The notes beneath the pieces were generated by a model. The model was not told where the DNA came from. It saw only the letters and a list, made by a program, of their open reading frames with translations, and did no database searches. 64,000 bases of DNA from positions 1 through 64,000 of the forward strand of contig VGPU01000001.1 in the NCBI GenBank assembly GCA_016882525.1, in the 5' to 3' direction. The position numbers were made by a program, and so were the translations under genes. The DNA comes from Cyanobacteria bacterium M_surface_10_m2_119. GTDB lineage: Bacteria > Cyanobacteriota > Cyanobacteriia > PCC-6307 > Cyanobiaceae. This document shows, in pieces, positions 45,736 through 53,850 of this stretch. Position 1 is the stretch's first letter, and each line of letters begins with the position of its first letter.

Positions 45736-46374
45736 TTGAGATCACGTTTCGCTGCCGCTCCGCTTGCTGCGGCGGTGGCCAAGGCTGCTCTGCCTGTGCT
45801 GGCCCTTGGTCTGTTCCACCCCCCGGTGCTGGCGCACCATCCCTTCGGCATGGGTGAAGGTGCCGAGCTCAACGGCTGGCAGGGCGTGCTCAGCGGCATC
45901 GGTCACCCGCTCCTTGGGCCTGACCACCTGCTCTTCCTGGTGGCCCTGACGTTCGTGGGGCTGAACCGCCCGCGGACCTGGGTGCTGCCCCTGCTGGCTG
46001 CAGGGCTGGCTGGCAGTGCCCTCTCCCTGCTTCTCCCCCTCGCCCCTGCCACCGCCCCCTGGGCCGAGGCGCTGGTGGCGTTGAGCCTGGCGGCGGCCGG
46101 CCTGATGACGCTCTCGGCCCTGCCGGCAGCCTGGCTGCTGCCCCTGTTCGGCCTGCACGGCTATCTCCTGGGGGGCACCATCGTCGGCGCCGAGCCCACC
46201 CCCCTGGCGACGTACTTCCTCGGCTTGCTGCTGGGCCAGGGGGCTGTGCTCCTTGCGGTCACCGGGCTGTCCCAATCGGTGGTGAAGGCCCTGGGCCGCG
46301 ATGGCCGGCGCCTGGCGGCCGGAATCTGGATCGGTCTGGGCTGCGCGTTTGCCTGGATGGCCCTGGTCGCCTGA
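45736..46374 (+). CDS. hupE: HupE/UreJ family metal transporter, probable cobalt uptake
   Basis: 212 residues. A signal-peptide-like helix ending VLAHHPFGMG is followed by the family motif HPLLGPDHLLFLVAL and five further helices. In HupE/UreJ proteins the His/Asp residues of this motif contact nickel or cobalt. TTG 45736 is chosen because GAGGA lies 7 bases upstream and it starts directly at the signal peptide. Control by a B12 riboswitch and a CobW gene 19 bases downstream point to cobalt rather than nickel. Confidence 0.9.
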   Translation: MRSRFAAAPLAAAVAKAALPVLALGLFHPPVLAHHPFGMGEGAELNGWQGVLSGIGHPLLGPDHLLFLVALTFVGLNRPRTWVLPLLAAGLAGSALSLLLPLAPATAPWAEALVALSLAAAGLMTLSALPAAWLLPLFGLHGYLLGGTIVGAEPTPLATYFLGLLLGQGAVLLAVTGLSQSVVKALGRDGRRLAAGIWIGLGCAFAWMALVA

Positions 46375-46393
46375 TCTGCATCAGTCCCCTCCC

Positions 46394-47506
46394 ATGACCC
46401 CAAATCTGAACAGGCCCGCGGGCCGCTTGCCCGTCACGGTGGTGACGGGCTTCCTCGGAGCTGGCAAGACCACCCTGCTGCGTCACCTCCTGCTTCAGAG
46501 CGGTCAGCGGCTGGCTGTGCTGGTCAATGAGTTTGGTGAGGTGGGCATCGACGGTGATCTGCTGCGCAGCTGTGGTTTCTGCCCGGAGGAGGAGCTGGAA
46601 GGCCGGCTGGTGGAGCTGGCCAATGGCTGCCTGTGCTGCACCGTGCAGGACGAGTTTCTGCCAACGATGCAGGCCCTCCTTGAACGGGCTGACCAGCTCG
46701 ACGGCATCGTGGTCGAGACCAGCGGCCTCGCCCTCCCGGAACCCCTGCTGGCCGCCTTCCGCTGGCCGGAGATCCGGAGCCGGACCTGGGTAAACGGCGT
46801 CGTCACGGTGGTTGATGGCGAGGCCCTGGCAGCCGGTGCAGTGGTCTCAGATCCCGAGGCTCTGGAGGCCCAGCGCCAGGCCGACCCAAGCCTTGACCAT
46901 GCCGCTGCCATTGATGCCCTGTTCGCGGAACAGCTCGGCTGCGCTGATCTGGTGCTGGTGAGTCGGGCAGACCGGCTGGAGCCCGACGCTCTGGAGGGTG
47001 TGGCCGTGAGCCTGCGGGAGAGCGTGAGGGCCGGTACACCCGTTCTGCCCATGGCTCGCGGTGCCATTGACCCCCAGCTGGTGATCGGTCTGGCCACCAA
47101 CCCAGCCACGGAGGACCCGGGCCGACGCGATTCGCACGAGGCCGATCACCATCATCACGACCACGACCACGACCACGATCACCACGACCACACCCACGTG
47201 GAGATGGAGTCGGTTGTGCTGCGCGTCCCTGGGGTCTTTGCCCGCCAGCAGCTGGAACAGGCCCTGCCTGACCTCGTGCGTCGCCATGGCCTGATCCGGG
47301 TCAAGGGGCGTCTCTGGCTACCTGGAAAGGCCAGACCGTTGGAAATCCAGGCCGTCGGTCCTCGACTGGACAGCTGGTTTGCCGATCAGGGAGCAGAACG
47401 GGTGGCTGCCCCTGGCCTTGAGCTTGTGCTCCTGGGCTTTTCCCTCGATCCCGAAGCCCTGCGCACGGCTTTCACGGCGCTGCTGCTGGATCCCGTATCC
47501 CCTTGA
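46394..47506 (+). CDS. cobW: CobW-type GTPase, metal chaperone
   Basis: 370 residues. P-loop GFLGAGKTT (18-26), the metal site GCLCC (78-82), ETSGL and a divergent SRAD guanine motif mark the COG0523 G3E GTPases. A His/Asp-rich linker (248-268, eleven His) precedes the C-terminal CobW domain. These chaperones bind Zn, Co or other divalent metals; here the riboswitch-hupE context argues for cobalt delivery to corrin synthesis. ATG 46394 follows hupE by 19 bases; the longer open frame upstream is hupE out of frame. Confidence 0.93.
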   Translation: MTPNLNRPAGRLPVTVVTGFLGAGKTTLLRHLLLQSGQRLAVLVNEFGEVGIDGDLLRSCGFCPEEELEGRLVELANGCLCCTVQDEFLPTMQALLERADQLDGIVVETSGLALPEPLLAAFRWPEIRSRTWVNGVVTVVDGEALAAGAVVSDPEALEAQRQADPSLDHAAAIDALFAEQLGCADLVLVSRADRLEPDALEGVAVSLRESVRAGTPVLPMARGAIDPQLVIGLATNPATEDPGRRDSHEADHHHHDHDHDHDHHDHTHVEMESVVLRVPGVFARQQLEQALPDLVRRHGLIRVKGRLWLPGKARPLEIQAVGPRLDSWFADQGAERVAAPGLELVLLGFSLDPEALRTAFTALLLDPVSP

Positions 47507-47513
47507 TGCACGA

Positions 47514-47843
47514 TTAATCGAGGGGGATCTCCCCCTGGGCACACACGCCATCCCAACAGAGCGTCGTCTCCTCCCGCCAGCGGGGTTGCACCGGCACCCA
47601 GTTGGTCCTTGCTGTGCGCATGCGAATGCTGCCCTTCCCATCGTGCTGGAAAGCGAATTCCTCTTGGCCCACCACCAGGGTCCAGCGTTCCCCCAGGCTC
47701 TGCACCCGCATCTGGCAGTTCAGCCAAGGGCCCCCCTGCACCTGGCAGCGCAGGGGCGGCGGATCCGCCAGGGACTGTGCCATCGCCGATGCCGGCATAG
47801 CCAGGCTCAGCAAGGCCAGGCCTGAGAGGAACGCGACAGCCAT
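47514..47843 (-). CDS. Small secreted protein of unknown function
   Basis: 109 residues. A clear signal peptide (MAVAFLSGLALLSLAMPASAMAQ) has a likely AxA cleavage site. The mature part has cysteines in LRCQVQ, LNCQMRV and LCWDGVCAQG and an alternating beta-strand pattern, probably a small disulfide-containing beta domain in the periplasm or lumen. No known family recognised. It converges with cobW, only 7 bases apart. Confidence 0.65.
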   Translation of the reverse strand: MAVAFLSGLALLSLAMPASAMAQSLADPPPLRCQVQGGPWLNCQMRVQSLGERWTLVVGQEEFAFQHDGKGSIRMRTARTNWVPVQPRWREETTLCWDGVCAQGEIPLD

Positions 47844-47935
47844 GGCTGGTCGGCAGGGCTCCTCTTCAACCTGACCAGGCCGCCGGGTCGTGGACCTGTG
47901 GGCTGCCAAGATTTAACAAGCCTCCCCCTGCCCAG

Positions 47936-48208
47936 GTGCCTCTTTTCCAAGCTCGCGTCCAGGTCTCCCTGCGACCGTCGGTCCTTGATCCAGCCGGTGA
48001 GGCCACCCGCGCTGCTGCGGCCCGCCTCGGTGTTTCCGGTGTGAAAACCCTCCGGATCGGCAAGGCGATCGAGCTGGAGCTGGAGGCTCCCGATCAGGCC
48101 ACGGCCCAAGCCCAGGTGGAGCTGCTCAGCGACCGGCTGCTGGCCAACCCGGTGATCGAGGACTGGTCGCTGCAGATCAGCGAAGCCTCGGCTGAGGGGC
48201 AGGCATGA
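47936..48208 (+). CDS. purS: Phosphoribosylformylglycinamidine synthase subunit PurS
   Basis: 90 residues from GTG 47936. [20 protein letters not shown] and [16 protein letters not shown] are the PurS core. PurS bridges PurL and PurQ in the three-protein FGAM synthase. It overlaps purQ by 4 bases. Confidence 0.92.
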
Positions 48209-48858
48209 CGGTTGGCGTGGTGGTGTTCCCCGGCTCCAACTGCGACCGGGACGTGCGCTGGGCTCTGGAGGGTTGCCTCGACATCCCTGTGCGTTTCCTC
48301 TGGCACGAGGAGCGTGATCTCAGCGGACTCGACGCCGTGGTGATTCCCGGGGGCTTCAGCTACGGGGATTATCTGCGTTGCGGCGCCATTGCCCGCTTCT
48401 CCCCGGTGCTGGAGAGTGTGCGCACCTTTGCCGAGGGCGGCGGCCCGGTGCTGGGCGTCTGCAACGGCTTCCAGGTGCTCACGGAAATGGGCCTGCTGCC
48501 AGGCGCCCTCACCCGCAATGCCAGGCTTCATTTCCTCTGCGAGGGGGCGGCCCTCACCGTTCAGCCGGCCCACTGCCACTGGTTGCAGGGTTATGGGCCC
48601 GGCGAATCGATCACCCTGCCCATTGCCCACGGGGAAGGCCGCTACCAGTGCAGTCCCGACCTGCTGGCTGAGCTGGAACTGGGTGGCCAGGTCGTGTTGC
48701 GCTACCAGGCCAATCCCAATGGATCGGTGGGTGACGTGGCGGGCCTCACGAATGCCGCGGGCAACGTGCTCGGGCTGATGCCCCATCCCGAACGGGCCTG
48801 CGATCCGGCCACGGGTGGTCTGGATGGTCGTCGCCTGCTGGCCTCGATCCTCGGCTGA
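48205..48858 (+). CDS. purQ: Phosphoribosylformylglycinamidine synthase subunit PurQ
   Basis: 217 residues. Class I glutamine amidotransferase: GSNCDRD near the N-terminus, [12 protein letters not shown], the nucleophile in VLGVCNGFQ and the His-Glu pair in MPHPER. It supplies ammonia for FGAM synthesis in purine biosynthesis. ATG 48205 overlaps the purS stop. Confidence 0.97.
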
Positions 48859-48884
48859 GATCCCTCCTCCACCGTTGCTGTTCT

Positions 48885-49181
48885 TCAGCGCTTGAGGCGG
48901 CTGCGGCGGTGGTAGGCGGGATCAGGGTTCGCTGCCTGCAACTGGCGGATGGCCTCGATTGCGAGGCCAGCGAGGCCTCCGGCCGCACCCACCAGCCGGC
49001 GAAGCCAGCGCAACTCCTGAGGGTCGATGGTGTTGGGGGTGTTGGCGACGATCGACTCCAGAAACAGACCGACGCACCAGCCGATCGCCACGCCCACCAG
49101 CAGGGCGGTCACCACCTTCCGGCCGCTCATGGGCCGGGGCCGGAGTGGCGGTGGGTTCTGCTGGGAGCCCGGCACGGTCAT
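48885..49181 (-). CDS. Small membrane protein of unknown function
   Basis: 98 residues. A Pro-rich start is followed by one or two hydrophobic segments (VVTALLVGVAIGWCVGLFLE and a Gly/Ala-rich RRLVGAAGGLAGLAIEA) and a basic C-terminus (YHRRSRLKR). Probably a short membrane protein with a cytosolic tail. It lies 68 bases after the interrupted RND gene on the same strand, but nothing ties it functionally to it. Confidence 0.6.
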   Translation of the reverse strand: MTVPGSQQNPPPLRPRPMSGRKVVTALLVGVAIGWCVGLFLESIVANTPNTIDPQELRWLRRLVGAAGGLAGLAIEAIRQLQAANPDPAYHRRSRLKR

Positions 49182-49248: not shown

Positions 49249-52200
49249 TCAGCCCCCCGTCGATTCGGAGCCGGAGAGCGGCACTTCCGGATTGCCACCC
49301 ACCAGGGTCTTGACCACCACGTAGAAGACGGGCACCACCAGCAGCGAGAGCACGGTGGCCACCAGCAGTCCCCCGAAGACCACCGTGCCGAGGGAGGCCT
49401 GACTGCGGGCACCTGCTCCGCTGGCCAGCACCAGGGGCAGGAAGCCGAACAGGGAAGAGATGGCGGTCATGATGATCGGCCGCAGGCGGGATCGCGCCGC
49501 ATCCCGGGCGGCTTCGATGGCAGTGGCACCTGCGGCCATGCGTTGGTTGGCCAGGTCGACGATCAGAATCCCGTTTTTGGCGGCTAGGCCGATCAACATC
49601 ACCAGACCCACCTGGGCGTAGATGTTCAGCACCTCTCCGCGGACAGCCAGGAAGATCAAGGCCCCCAGCATTGCGGTGGGCACCGTCATCAGGATGATCA
49701 GGGGGTCTGCATAGCTCTCGTACTGAGCGGCTAGCACCACATACACCACCAGGATGCCCAGGGCGAAGATCACAATGGCCAGGGAGCCGGCCTTCACCTC
49801 TTCACGAGAGATTCCCGTCCAGTCGAACCCAAGGCCCTGCAGCGATTGGGAGTCAAAGATCCTGCGCATGGCGTTGATCGCCTGGCCGGAGCTGTTGCCT
49901 GCTGCCGGTTCGCCCTCGATCTTGATCGAGCGGTAGAGGTTGAAGTGGGGGATCACGTTGGGCCCTTCAATGGGACGCACACGGAAGAACTCCGAGAGCT
50001 GGATCTGTTCCCCCTTGTTGTTGCTGACATAGAGCGTCTTGAGACGCTCTGGGGTGGCACGGCTGGCGTCGTCGGCCTGCACAAACACCCGCCGCACCTT
50101 GCCATCCTGGAAGGTGTCATTGACATAGAGACCCCCGAAGTTCACGCTGAATGAGCGCATGGCGCTGCCAAAGTCCACGCCCAGGGAAGCCAGGCGATCG
50201 CGATCCACGTCGATGGCCAGCTGCGGTGCCGAGGGTGAAAACTGGGTACGCACCGGCGGTGTGCGGCTGAAGGTCGGGTCGCCATTGGCAGCCCGGATGA
50301 GCTGGCCGGAGGCCTCAGAGAATTCCGGCAGGTCGTAGCGCCCTCCACTGCGATCGAGGAGCTGGAATTCGAAACCTCCTGACTAGCCGTAGCCGGGAAT
50401 GGCGGGAGGCTCGATCACCACAACCCGTGCATCCTGGATCTCGGCTGCAAATCTGCGGTTCAGGCGCTGGGTGATGGCACCCACGGCCTGGTCTCGGGAG
50501 GCACGGTCATCCCAGTGCCGGGTGCCGAAGAAAAAGAGGCCTTTGTTGGGAGCATTGCCATCAAAGCTGGCTCCGCTGAACAGGGAGGCGGCCGTGATGT
50601 CCTCTTCATCCCGCAGAATGGCGCCGACCTGGTCGTTGATGCGCTGTGTGACCTGAATTGATCCGCCATCGGGAGCCTGCACGATGCCGAGGGCATAGCC
50701 TTGATCTTCGATGGGAACAAAGCCACTGGGGATGGCGCGGAAGGCCACTCCAGTGAGCAGGATTCCCCCCGCGAGCACTGTCATGACGAGCCCTCGCCGG
50801 TGCAGAACCCACTCCAGAAGGCCGTGATACCCACCCTCCAGTTGGCCATACAGGGCATTGAATCGCCGGAAAATGGATGGAGTGAACCATCCCGCCGCAA
50901 TCCCGAGGGCTGTGAAGAGGAGCACGGGAATGGGCCGTTCCACCCCGGCCAGCAGCAGGCCACTCACGGCACCGCCGACCACGCAGGGCAGACGCAGGGG
51001 GAGACCGGTGATCAATTTGGCGAGATAGCCCACCAGAAGTCCGATGCCCACAGCCATCAGGGTTCCCAGTACTCCAGTCCAGCCCGCCATCAAGCCATAG
51101 ATGAAGCCAATCGCACCACCTGCAATGGCATAGGTGCGACGTGAAGGAGGCTCACCGGGATTGGCCAGAAGCAGGGCCGAAAGCATCGGAGAGAAGGTGA
51201 GTGCGTTGAAGGTGGAGATGGCGACTGAAAAGATGATTGTTGCTGCAAACTGTTTGTAGATGGTGCCCGTGGCACCCGGGAAAAACAGCACCGGTAGGAA
51301 CACTGCAAACAGCACAACTGACGTCGCGATGACAGCACTGAACAGCTCCTCCATCGTGCCCATGGCAGCCTGTACGGCGCTGACACCCCCCTGGGCTTTT
51401 TTGGTTGAGGTGTCTTCAATCACTGTGATGGCGTCATCCACGACAAGGCCTGTGGCCAGAATCAGTCCGAACAGGGTGAGCTGGTTCAGCGAGAAGCCAA
51501 GAGCGTTGACGAGAGCGAAGGTGCCTACGAGGGCGACGGGAATGGCGATGCCGGGAACCAGGGTTGCTTTCCAGTTCTGCAGAAACAGAAACAGGATAAG
51601 CACTACGAGCATCACGGCATCACGCAGGGAACCAAGCACCCCCTTGATCGATGCGTTGATGAAGTCGGTGCTGTCATAGATCTTTTCCATCTTCAGTCCT
51701 ACCGGCATCACCGACTGGAAGTCGTCCAGCACTTTCTTGATGCCCGCCGAGGTGCGCAGAGCGTTGGTGCCACTCAGCTGGTAAACCGCCATCCCAACGG
51801 AAGGAACCCCTCGGATATCCGTGGCCGTGAGGGCGTAATTCTCACCACCCAGTGAGGCTCTGCCCACATCGCGTAAACGCAGAATGCCGCCATCAGGCGT
51901 AGTACGAATGATAAGGTCGTTGAATTCCTCTTCGCTGACCAATCGACCTTTCAGCTGAACGGTAAACGTGAATTCCTGACCCTTCAGCGCAGGCTCTCCT
52001 CCCACTTGTCCGGCCGGCACCAGGCGGTTCTGACTGCTCAGGGCTTCAACCACATCGTTGGAGGTGAGACCAAAGGCGGTGAGCTTGTCGGGATCGAGCC
52101 AGAGACGGAACGCCAGCTTTCTCTCGCCGAAGTAGGTGAGGTCTCCAACGCCGGGGATTCTGCGGATTGCATCGGTCAGGTTCTGGTCGAGCAAGCCGCT

Positions 52201-52677
52201 GATGGTCTCGGCGGAATATGTGAACTTCTCGGGATCCTCGCTGACAAAGTTGTATACGAGTAGGATGTTATTGGAGGCCTTGTTGACAACAACACCTGAC
52301 TGCCTCACCTCGTCCGGCAGGGACGGGTTTGCCAGAGAAACCCTGTTCTGAACATTGACCTGGTTGATATCACCGTTGGTGCCGCTGGCGAAGGAGACGG
52401 TGATTTCACTCCGTCCGTCAGCTGAGCTGCTGGACGTGATGTAATCCATGTTCTCGACGCCATTGATCTGCTGCTCCAGCACATTGGTAACGCCCTGCTC
52501 CACGGTGACTGCATCAGCCCCGCCGTAGAGTGCACTGACATTGACCGTTGATGGTGCAATATCCGGCAGGTTCTCAACAGGGAGTAGCGGGATTGAGATC
52601 AGCCCTGCAATCACGATGATCAGGCTGCACACAGTGGTGAGGACAGGCCTGACGATGAAATTATTCGAAGGAGACAC
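49249..52677 (-). pseudogene. RND multidrug efflux permease (AcrB/HAE1 type) interrupted by one in-frame amber codon
   Basis: A single reading frame of 1143 codons with one TAG at 50383-50385 (codon 765). The first part has TM1 (TTVCSLIIVIAGLISIPLL), periplasmic porter domains and the proton-relay motif GLVVDDAI (410-417). The part after TAG begins SGGFEFQLLDR, the normal continuation of the conserved PPAIPGYG segment, and holds the second porter half and the last helices. Residues 508-603, between the two halves, carry extra hydrophobic segments. The gene follows its adaptor by 51 bases. It may be a pseudogene, a strain-specific mutation, a sequencing error or a readthrough case; the C-terminal piece alone is unlikely to work. 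Confidence 0.9.
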
Positions 52678-52728: not shown

Positions 52729-53850
52729 TCAATTCGCTTTCACAGGCATGCCGTGCCGGAGATTGATCAGATTGGATGTGATCACCCTGGCATCGGGATC
52801 GAGGCCTCCCAGCACGGGGTAGCGCTGGTTCTGGAGCGCACCGAGCTTCAACGGGGTCTGCAGCGCCAACGGCGTTTCGCCGGGCATGCGGGCGAGAGGC
52901 TCGAGGTTGACCCGTCCCGGATTGCGGCGCAGCTCCGCCAGGGTGCCCAGACGGAACACAAAGGTCTGACCAGACTGCTGCGTGACCGCGGCAAAGGGCA
53001 CCGACGGCTGCACCCTCTCATCAAGGATCAGCTGGGTCCGGGTGCGCAGTCCCGTGCGCAGCATCTTCTCCGCGTTGTCGAACTCGGCTTTGACGAGGAG
53101 GGTCTGGGTATTGCTGCTCACTCCAGGATCAATGGAGCGCACGGGTGCCTGGGCCATCGGACGGCCATTCGCCGGATCCATCAGCACCACGGTCTGTCCA
53201 GGGCGCAAGCGCCCGGTGAAGACAGCAGGTACCTCCACCCGGGCCAGCAGGCGGTTGTTGCGGATGATGCTGGTGAATGGCTGGCCGGCCGTGATCACGT
53301 CGCCCACCTTCACGGACACGTCGCCGACTGTTCCGCTGATCGGTGCCCTCAGGTCTCGGAAGCCCAGGTCAGCTTCGCTGGCGATCAGTTGCTGGCGGGA
53401 CGCCACATACCGTTGTCTGAGCTCATCCCGCTGGATCGCGCTGGCGGCCCCCTGCTTCACCAGGAATTCGTAGCGCTGATAGTTGAGGCGATTGGTTTCG
53501 ACCTCAGCCTTGAGCCGTGCCACGTCAGCCCTGGCCTGGGTTTGGTCGAGCACCAGCAGCAACTGCCCCGCCTGCACCGGATCACCCTGGCGAACGCGCA
53601 ACTGCTCGATGCGTCCGCCCGCCTGGGCAGCCAGAGAGACCTCATCTAGCGCTTCGAGAGTGCTGACGGTCTCCACGACGTCCCGGAAGATTCCAGTCTG
53701 GACCGGTTGGGTCTGCACCGGCAATGGACCTCGAGCCGAGCCAGCGCCGGAGTCTGCGCCCTTGCACGCCGCCAGGGGCAGGGTCAGGGCGAGGGCAAGC
53801 GGACCAACGAACCGGTACCGCGAAGACCGGGGGTCGACAGGGGAAGCCAT
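52729..53850 (-). CDS. RND efflux periplasmic adaptor (AcrA-like lipoprotein)
   Basis: 373 residues. A signal peptide ends in lipobox LAAC (cysteine about 28), so LspA would process it. Then the membrane-fusion core: EVSLAAQAGGRIEQLRVRQGD, the helical hairpin (about 100-155), the second lipoyl half (DLRAPISGTVGDV) and the beta barrel. It links the inner-membrane RND pump to an outer-membrane TolC-like channel, which is not encoded here. It is intact although its pump gene is interrupted. Confidence 0.92.
   Translation of the reverse strand: MASPVDPRSSRYRFVGPLALALTLPLAACKGADSGAGSARGPLPVQTQPVQTGIFRDVVETVSTLEALDEVSLAAQAGGRIEQLRVRQGDPVQAGQLLLVLDQTQARADVARLKAEVETNRLNYQRYEFLVKQGAASAIQRDELRQRYVASRQQLIASEADLGFRDLRAPISGTVGDVSVKVGDVITAGQPFTSIIRNNRLLARVEVPAVFTGRLRPGQTVVLMDPANGRPMAQAPVRSIDPGVSSNTQTLLVKAEFDNAEKMLRTGLRTRTQLILDERVQPSVPFAAVTQQSGQTFVFRLGTLAELRRNPGRVNLEPLARMPGETPLALQTPLKLGALQNQRYPVLGGLDPDARVITSNLINLRHGMPVKAN

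Follow-up and report, generated by a model that had tools for sequence, protein, structure and literature searches.

The window, a stretch of 64,000 nucleotides of contig VGPU01000001.1, carries on its minus strand an AcrB-type frame of 1143 codons (52677..49249) in which codon 765 is TAG, the plus strand reading CTA at 50383-50385 (Table 1). Past the TAG the frame stays open for another 377 codons and then ends in TGA. Apart from this single inner stop it encodes a complete HAE1-type RND permease (1142 residues), and when read through it matches the AcrB-type profile TIGR00915 over its full length (1064 bits, cut-off 940) and PF00873 with 1000 bits. The TAG is aligned with Thr 676 of AcrB, counted from the alignment, within the second periplasmic (porter) loop. 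The TAG is not a matter of chance, because the residues flanking it align without a gap with 20 orthologues. The initial annotation had described an in-frame TAG splitting an AcrB-type frame that is open on either side, and this was confirmed. With its frame broken at codon 765, the gene would be an interrupted member of the HAE1 RND permeases and not a working one. An AGGAGG at 50374-50382 lies almost directly 3' of the TAG; there is no usual start codon at the right spacing, and the motif was taken as a coincidence of Ser-Gly-Gly codons.

Table 1 Features of the pump locus (window coordinates) and inner stops of the source genome (contig:position)
Feature	Position	Strand	Stop	Remarks
Upstream part of RND permease frame	50386..52677	-		764 codons from GTG; first pump half, TM7 and part of second porter loop; topology by AcrB homology
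Premature stop, codon 765 of RND permease frame	50383..50385	-	TAG	AcrB residue 676 by alignment
Downstream part of RND permease frame	49249..50382	-		377 codons and TGA; remainder of second porter loop, then TM8-TM12; conservation retained in orthologue alignment
First in-frame start past the TAG (GTG)	49249..50253	-		334 aa ORF; lacks TM7; no Shine-Dalgarno just upstream
RND periplasmic adaptor (MFP)	52729..53850	-		373 aa, intact; TIGR01730
Small gene 3' of pump	48885..49181	-		Also 3' of pump in relatives (conserved neighbour)
RND pump	C1:50383		TAG	
PAS-GGDEF-EAL region, counted as one gene	C1:125612 and C1:127258		TAG, TAG	Frameshift near 126065
Outer-membrane efflux protein (OEP/TolC)	C3:31864		TAG	Relatives' residue Gln
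4Fe-4S/cNMP membrane protein	C4:5665		TAG	Relatives' residue Glu or others
ZnuA	C12:30184		TAG	Relatives' residue Glu or others
Formylglycine-generating-enzyme-like (FGE-like)	C12:44808		TAG	
YCII	C18:4192		TAG	
Sulfotransferase	C18:15376		TAG	
HypE	C23:24157		TAG	Relatives' residue Glu or others
Rhodanese	C18:6425		TAA	
GGDEF-EAL	C18:38956		TAA	
Amino acid permease	C13:18148		TAA	
ClC channel	C16:22529		TGA	Relatives' residue Trp

The adaptor gene, regarded as intact from the beginning, is indeed open and adjoins the pump as the membrane-fusion adaptor of an HAE1 RND permease does. Its identity to the adaptors next to the orthologues is only 50-62 %, though those pumps are 81-86 % identical; either adaptor and pump differ greatly in their rate of divergence or an exchange of the adaptor has taken place. 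In relatives the pump and the small neighbour gene are followed by a second adaptor-RND pair, instead of which purQ, a purS-like gene and a CobW-type gene come after the pump in the window (46301-49181). A homologue of this second RND pump is located on contig C28 of the source genome. The genome has two more RND pumps with open full-length frames (contigs C28 and C15), i.e. three HAE1-type RND pumps in all.

The host is a picocyanobacterium of a Cyanobium/Synechococcus group; among named organisms, Synechococcus sp. CS-1328 was the closest found (81 %). A pump orthologue was detected in 94 of 251 family genomes, and twelve of the thirteen genomes of the genus carry it. In the inner-stop check an inner TAG was present only in the window's copy; a TGA flagged in the orthologue of genome G007 is the end of the frame and not an inner stop. 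The comparison with close relatives proposed in the initial annotation showed open frames in the closest copies (83-86 % identity) and sense codons at the TAG position in the aligned orthologues; the alignment of both flanks with orthologues of 81-86 % identity is free of gaps. Among the aligned orthologues this column holds Thr (29) and, in most others, Ile (5), Ala (4), Gln (2) or Met (2), and it is thus variable in the family, with no conserved residue. The flanking sequences PPAIPGYG and SGGFEFQLLDR had been taken for normal family sequence; the correction to be made is that the stop column itself varies, Thr being the most frequent residue. Gln (CAG) was found in two of the three closest relatives (83 and 86 % identical), and the suggested single transition from CAG to TAG is therefore plausible, but it is not the only possible history. 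As in a nonsense pseudogene, the orthologues lack the stop and have a sense codon from which it differs by one base. The pump shares with its cyanobacterial orthologues an extra hydrophobic stretch at approximately residues 508-600. The orthologous pump (L017:1-1520) of the single-contig genome G006 has a frameshift in a G run close to residue 346, which reflects either independent loss or an error in the homopolymer; as an independent frameshift it makes the pump seem dispensable in the genus.

The age of the stop was assessed from single-base changes unique to the branch of the window's copy, in comparison with three close relatives. There were 105 synonymous and 19 nonsynonymous changes before the stop, and 41 and 4, respectively, after it, where the changes were mostly silent. 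Decay after the stop was no greater than before it (Fisher p 0.32). The ratio for the whole gene was slightly above that of the relatives (p 0.04), a weak difference, the window's sequence being the deepest of the four. Because the downstream frame shows no decay, the mutation would be recent; it is also conceivable that something protects this frame, but a recent origin is the simpler explanation. The earlier impression of a recent break was thus upheld, and the strain mutation that had been listed among its possible causes gained support from the undecayed downstream frame together with the restriction of the TAG to the window's copy.

To count inner stops in the source genome, 1.58 Mb of its 2.62 Mb were scanned for stops flanked on both sides by in-frame coding sequence, as judged by a three-periodic coding model; gene junctions were separated from inner stops by eye, with Pfam and with relatives. 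Codon-usage scoring by itself missed the pump. At least 14 inner stops (10 TAG, 3 TAA and 1 TGA) were found in 13 otherwise open genes, and the pump stop is one of these single-base stops in accessory genes. Six genes (those for the pump, the outer-membrane protein, HypE, ZnuA, the 4Fe-4S protein and the ClC channel) were checked directly against relatives and two (GGDEF region, rhodanese) partially, while the remaining ones rest on Pfam domains spanning the stop. Since the sensitivity of the scan was ~68 % for random inner codons, the 14 stops detected in coding frames totalling 1.34 Mb would correspond to perhaps ~20 in the sampled part. The large PAS-GGDEF-EAL-PAS-GGDEF region (L193:511-4055; C1:124511-128055), with two TAGs and a frameshift near C1:126065, probably represents one or two cyclic-di-GMP genes in decay.

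In the first scan nearly all inner stops were TAG, which pointed to amber suppression, but the excess disappeared after candidates with a close start codon had added TAA cases and the TGA of the ClC channel had been confirmed. From the codon usage at 69 % G+C, random single-base changes to stops are expected to give 65 % TAG, 16 % TAA and 19 % TGA. The observed distribution fits this expectation (chi-square p 0.50; p 0.43 for 10 or more TAG); therefore, the amber majority is compositional and there is no amber signal.

Considering all the evidence, we think that an ordinary nonsense point mutation, strain- or lineage-specific and recent, has probably inactivated one of the three HAE1-type RND pumps. 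A single-base change in this strain or lineage would have created TAG at codon 765, where RF1 would end translation and leave a product of 764 residues. By analogy with AcrB, this product would lack TM8-TM12 and the remainder of the porter domain; a working trimer would not be expected to form, and pump function would be lost. The two remaining full-length RND pumps may make the loss tolerable through redundancy.

The stop could also be a consensus or assembly error, resulting from low coverage or mixed strains, in a living cell with an intact pump; we consider this possible but rather doubtful. The assembly is a draft of 118 contigs in which contamination amounts to 2.66 % and the tRNA-Tyr/Thr loci are duplicated, and the TAG is known from this one assembly of the species only. 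Two copies of the tRNA-Tyr/tRNA-Thr pair are present (L118 and L119, on contigs C42 and C71), in flanks of ~79-84 % identical DNA, and a third tRNA-Tyr lies at a contig end (L178, C69); these contigs are likely foreign or of mixed-strain origin. The frequency of inner stops in the draft is in favour of errors, as is their absence from the coding frames scanned in the single-contig relative G011 (0.30 Mb), where 3.1 were expected (p 0.04). Although this control is small, the inner-stop rate of the source genome looks raised compared to the relative. A tblastn search with 255 G011 genes as queries recovered few orthologues from the contigs sampled. The types of the stops fit random single-base errors equally well as mutations, and there is a precedent in the old sequence of PCC 6301, which contained many false nonsense changes, recognised because essential genes were affected (PMC9239245). 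None of the 13 stop-bearing genes, however, looks essential: all are accessory, as sorted by family and not by measured essentiality. The essential genes of S. elongatus number 718 of 2723 (PMC10217888), and at the corresponding share of 26 % the probability of finding no essential gene among 13 is ~0.02. Random errors would strike essential genes too, and the accessory nature of all 13 genes thus favours real mutations filtered by selection. Furthermore, frame switches were barely commoner than in the relative (0.22 compared to 0.20 per kb with a seven-state frame model, a count dominated by overlapping genes), and the pump itself deviates at only 4 columns otherwise invariant in 43 sequences.

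Partial readthrough of the amber codon by a suppressor or near-cognate tRNA, giving low levels of full-length pump, or a stop that is programmed, appears very unlikely. The TAG majority among the inner stops and the constraint still acting on the downstream frame would be compatible with it, and bacterial examples of conserved in-frame stops under purifying selection have been described (PMC7918605). However, no tRNA with a CUA anticodon was present among the 43 RF00005 tRNA matches in the draft assembly, although an unassembled gene is conceivable; ARAGORN named all matches but one weak partial one. The latter (L186; C39:18018-18182; 30 bits) has a UAC anticodon loop, contains no complete gene by ARAGORN and is perhaps a tRNA-Val remnant. 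RF1 is present with its PAT and GGQ motifs, and TAG ends 147 of 1188 genes (12.4 %) compared to 32 of 255 (12.5 %) in G011. TAG is kept as a terminator and has not been reassigned by an altered genetic code. The pump TAG is shared by no orthologue, TAA and TGA also occur as inner stops, and the TAG share is not above random. The replaced residues vary, with Gln or Glu at TAGs and Trp at the TGA, which speaks against one suppressor. The programmed amber readthrough raised in the initial annotation thus found no support, either in a suppressor tRNA or in an excess of amber among the other in-frame stops. A related proposal, that low-level misreading by ordinary tRNAs lets the lineage tolerate stops in accessory genes, so that several 'broken' genes including the pump yield some full-length protein, seems more improbable still. 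That the pump now consists of two functional polypeptides, the second made by re-initiation at the in-frame GTG 44 codons past the stop, is extremely improbable, as this piece without TM7 and the intervening residues is no complete second half, the GTG has no Shine-Dalgarno, and the cut is inside the second porter loop and not between the pump halves.

With the nonsense mutation as the preferred explanation, the pump gene should be flagged in annotation as interrupted and not recoded. The source genome seems richer in inner stops than its relative, and its gene losses need to be checked from reads before comparative use. In a genome of 69 % G+C most random nonsense changes give TAG; a series of amber codons is thus by itself no sign of suppression, and the comparison of stop types with codon usage provides a simple guard against false suppression claims.

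Our literature search revealed no paper linking nonsense mutation, pseudogene, RND efflux and cyanobacteria together. The pump resembles the HAE1 RND permeases AcrB and MexB (TIGR00915, PF00873) in its full-length read-through frame, RND layout and adjoining adaptor gene, but differs from them in the premature TAG at the position of AcrB residue 676 and in the extra hydrophobic stretch. With the conserved in-frame stops of suspected readthrough described by Belinky et al. (2021; PMC7918605), whose example is TAG compared to CAG, it has in common an in-frame TAG with both sides conserved; that study, however, accepted only stops shared by at least two genomes, whereas the pump TAG occurs in one only. 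Recent bacterial nonsense pseudogenes have the same features as the pump gene, i.e. a single-base stop, an otherwise intact frame, open copies in relatives and redundancy of the gene, and no difference from them was seen in the pump stop as it is known from the assembly sequence alone. The stop is best read as an ordinary gene loss, with no sign of cellular readthrough.
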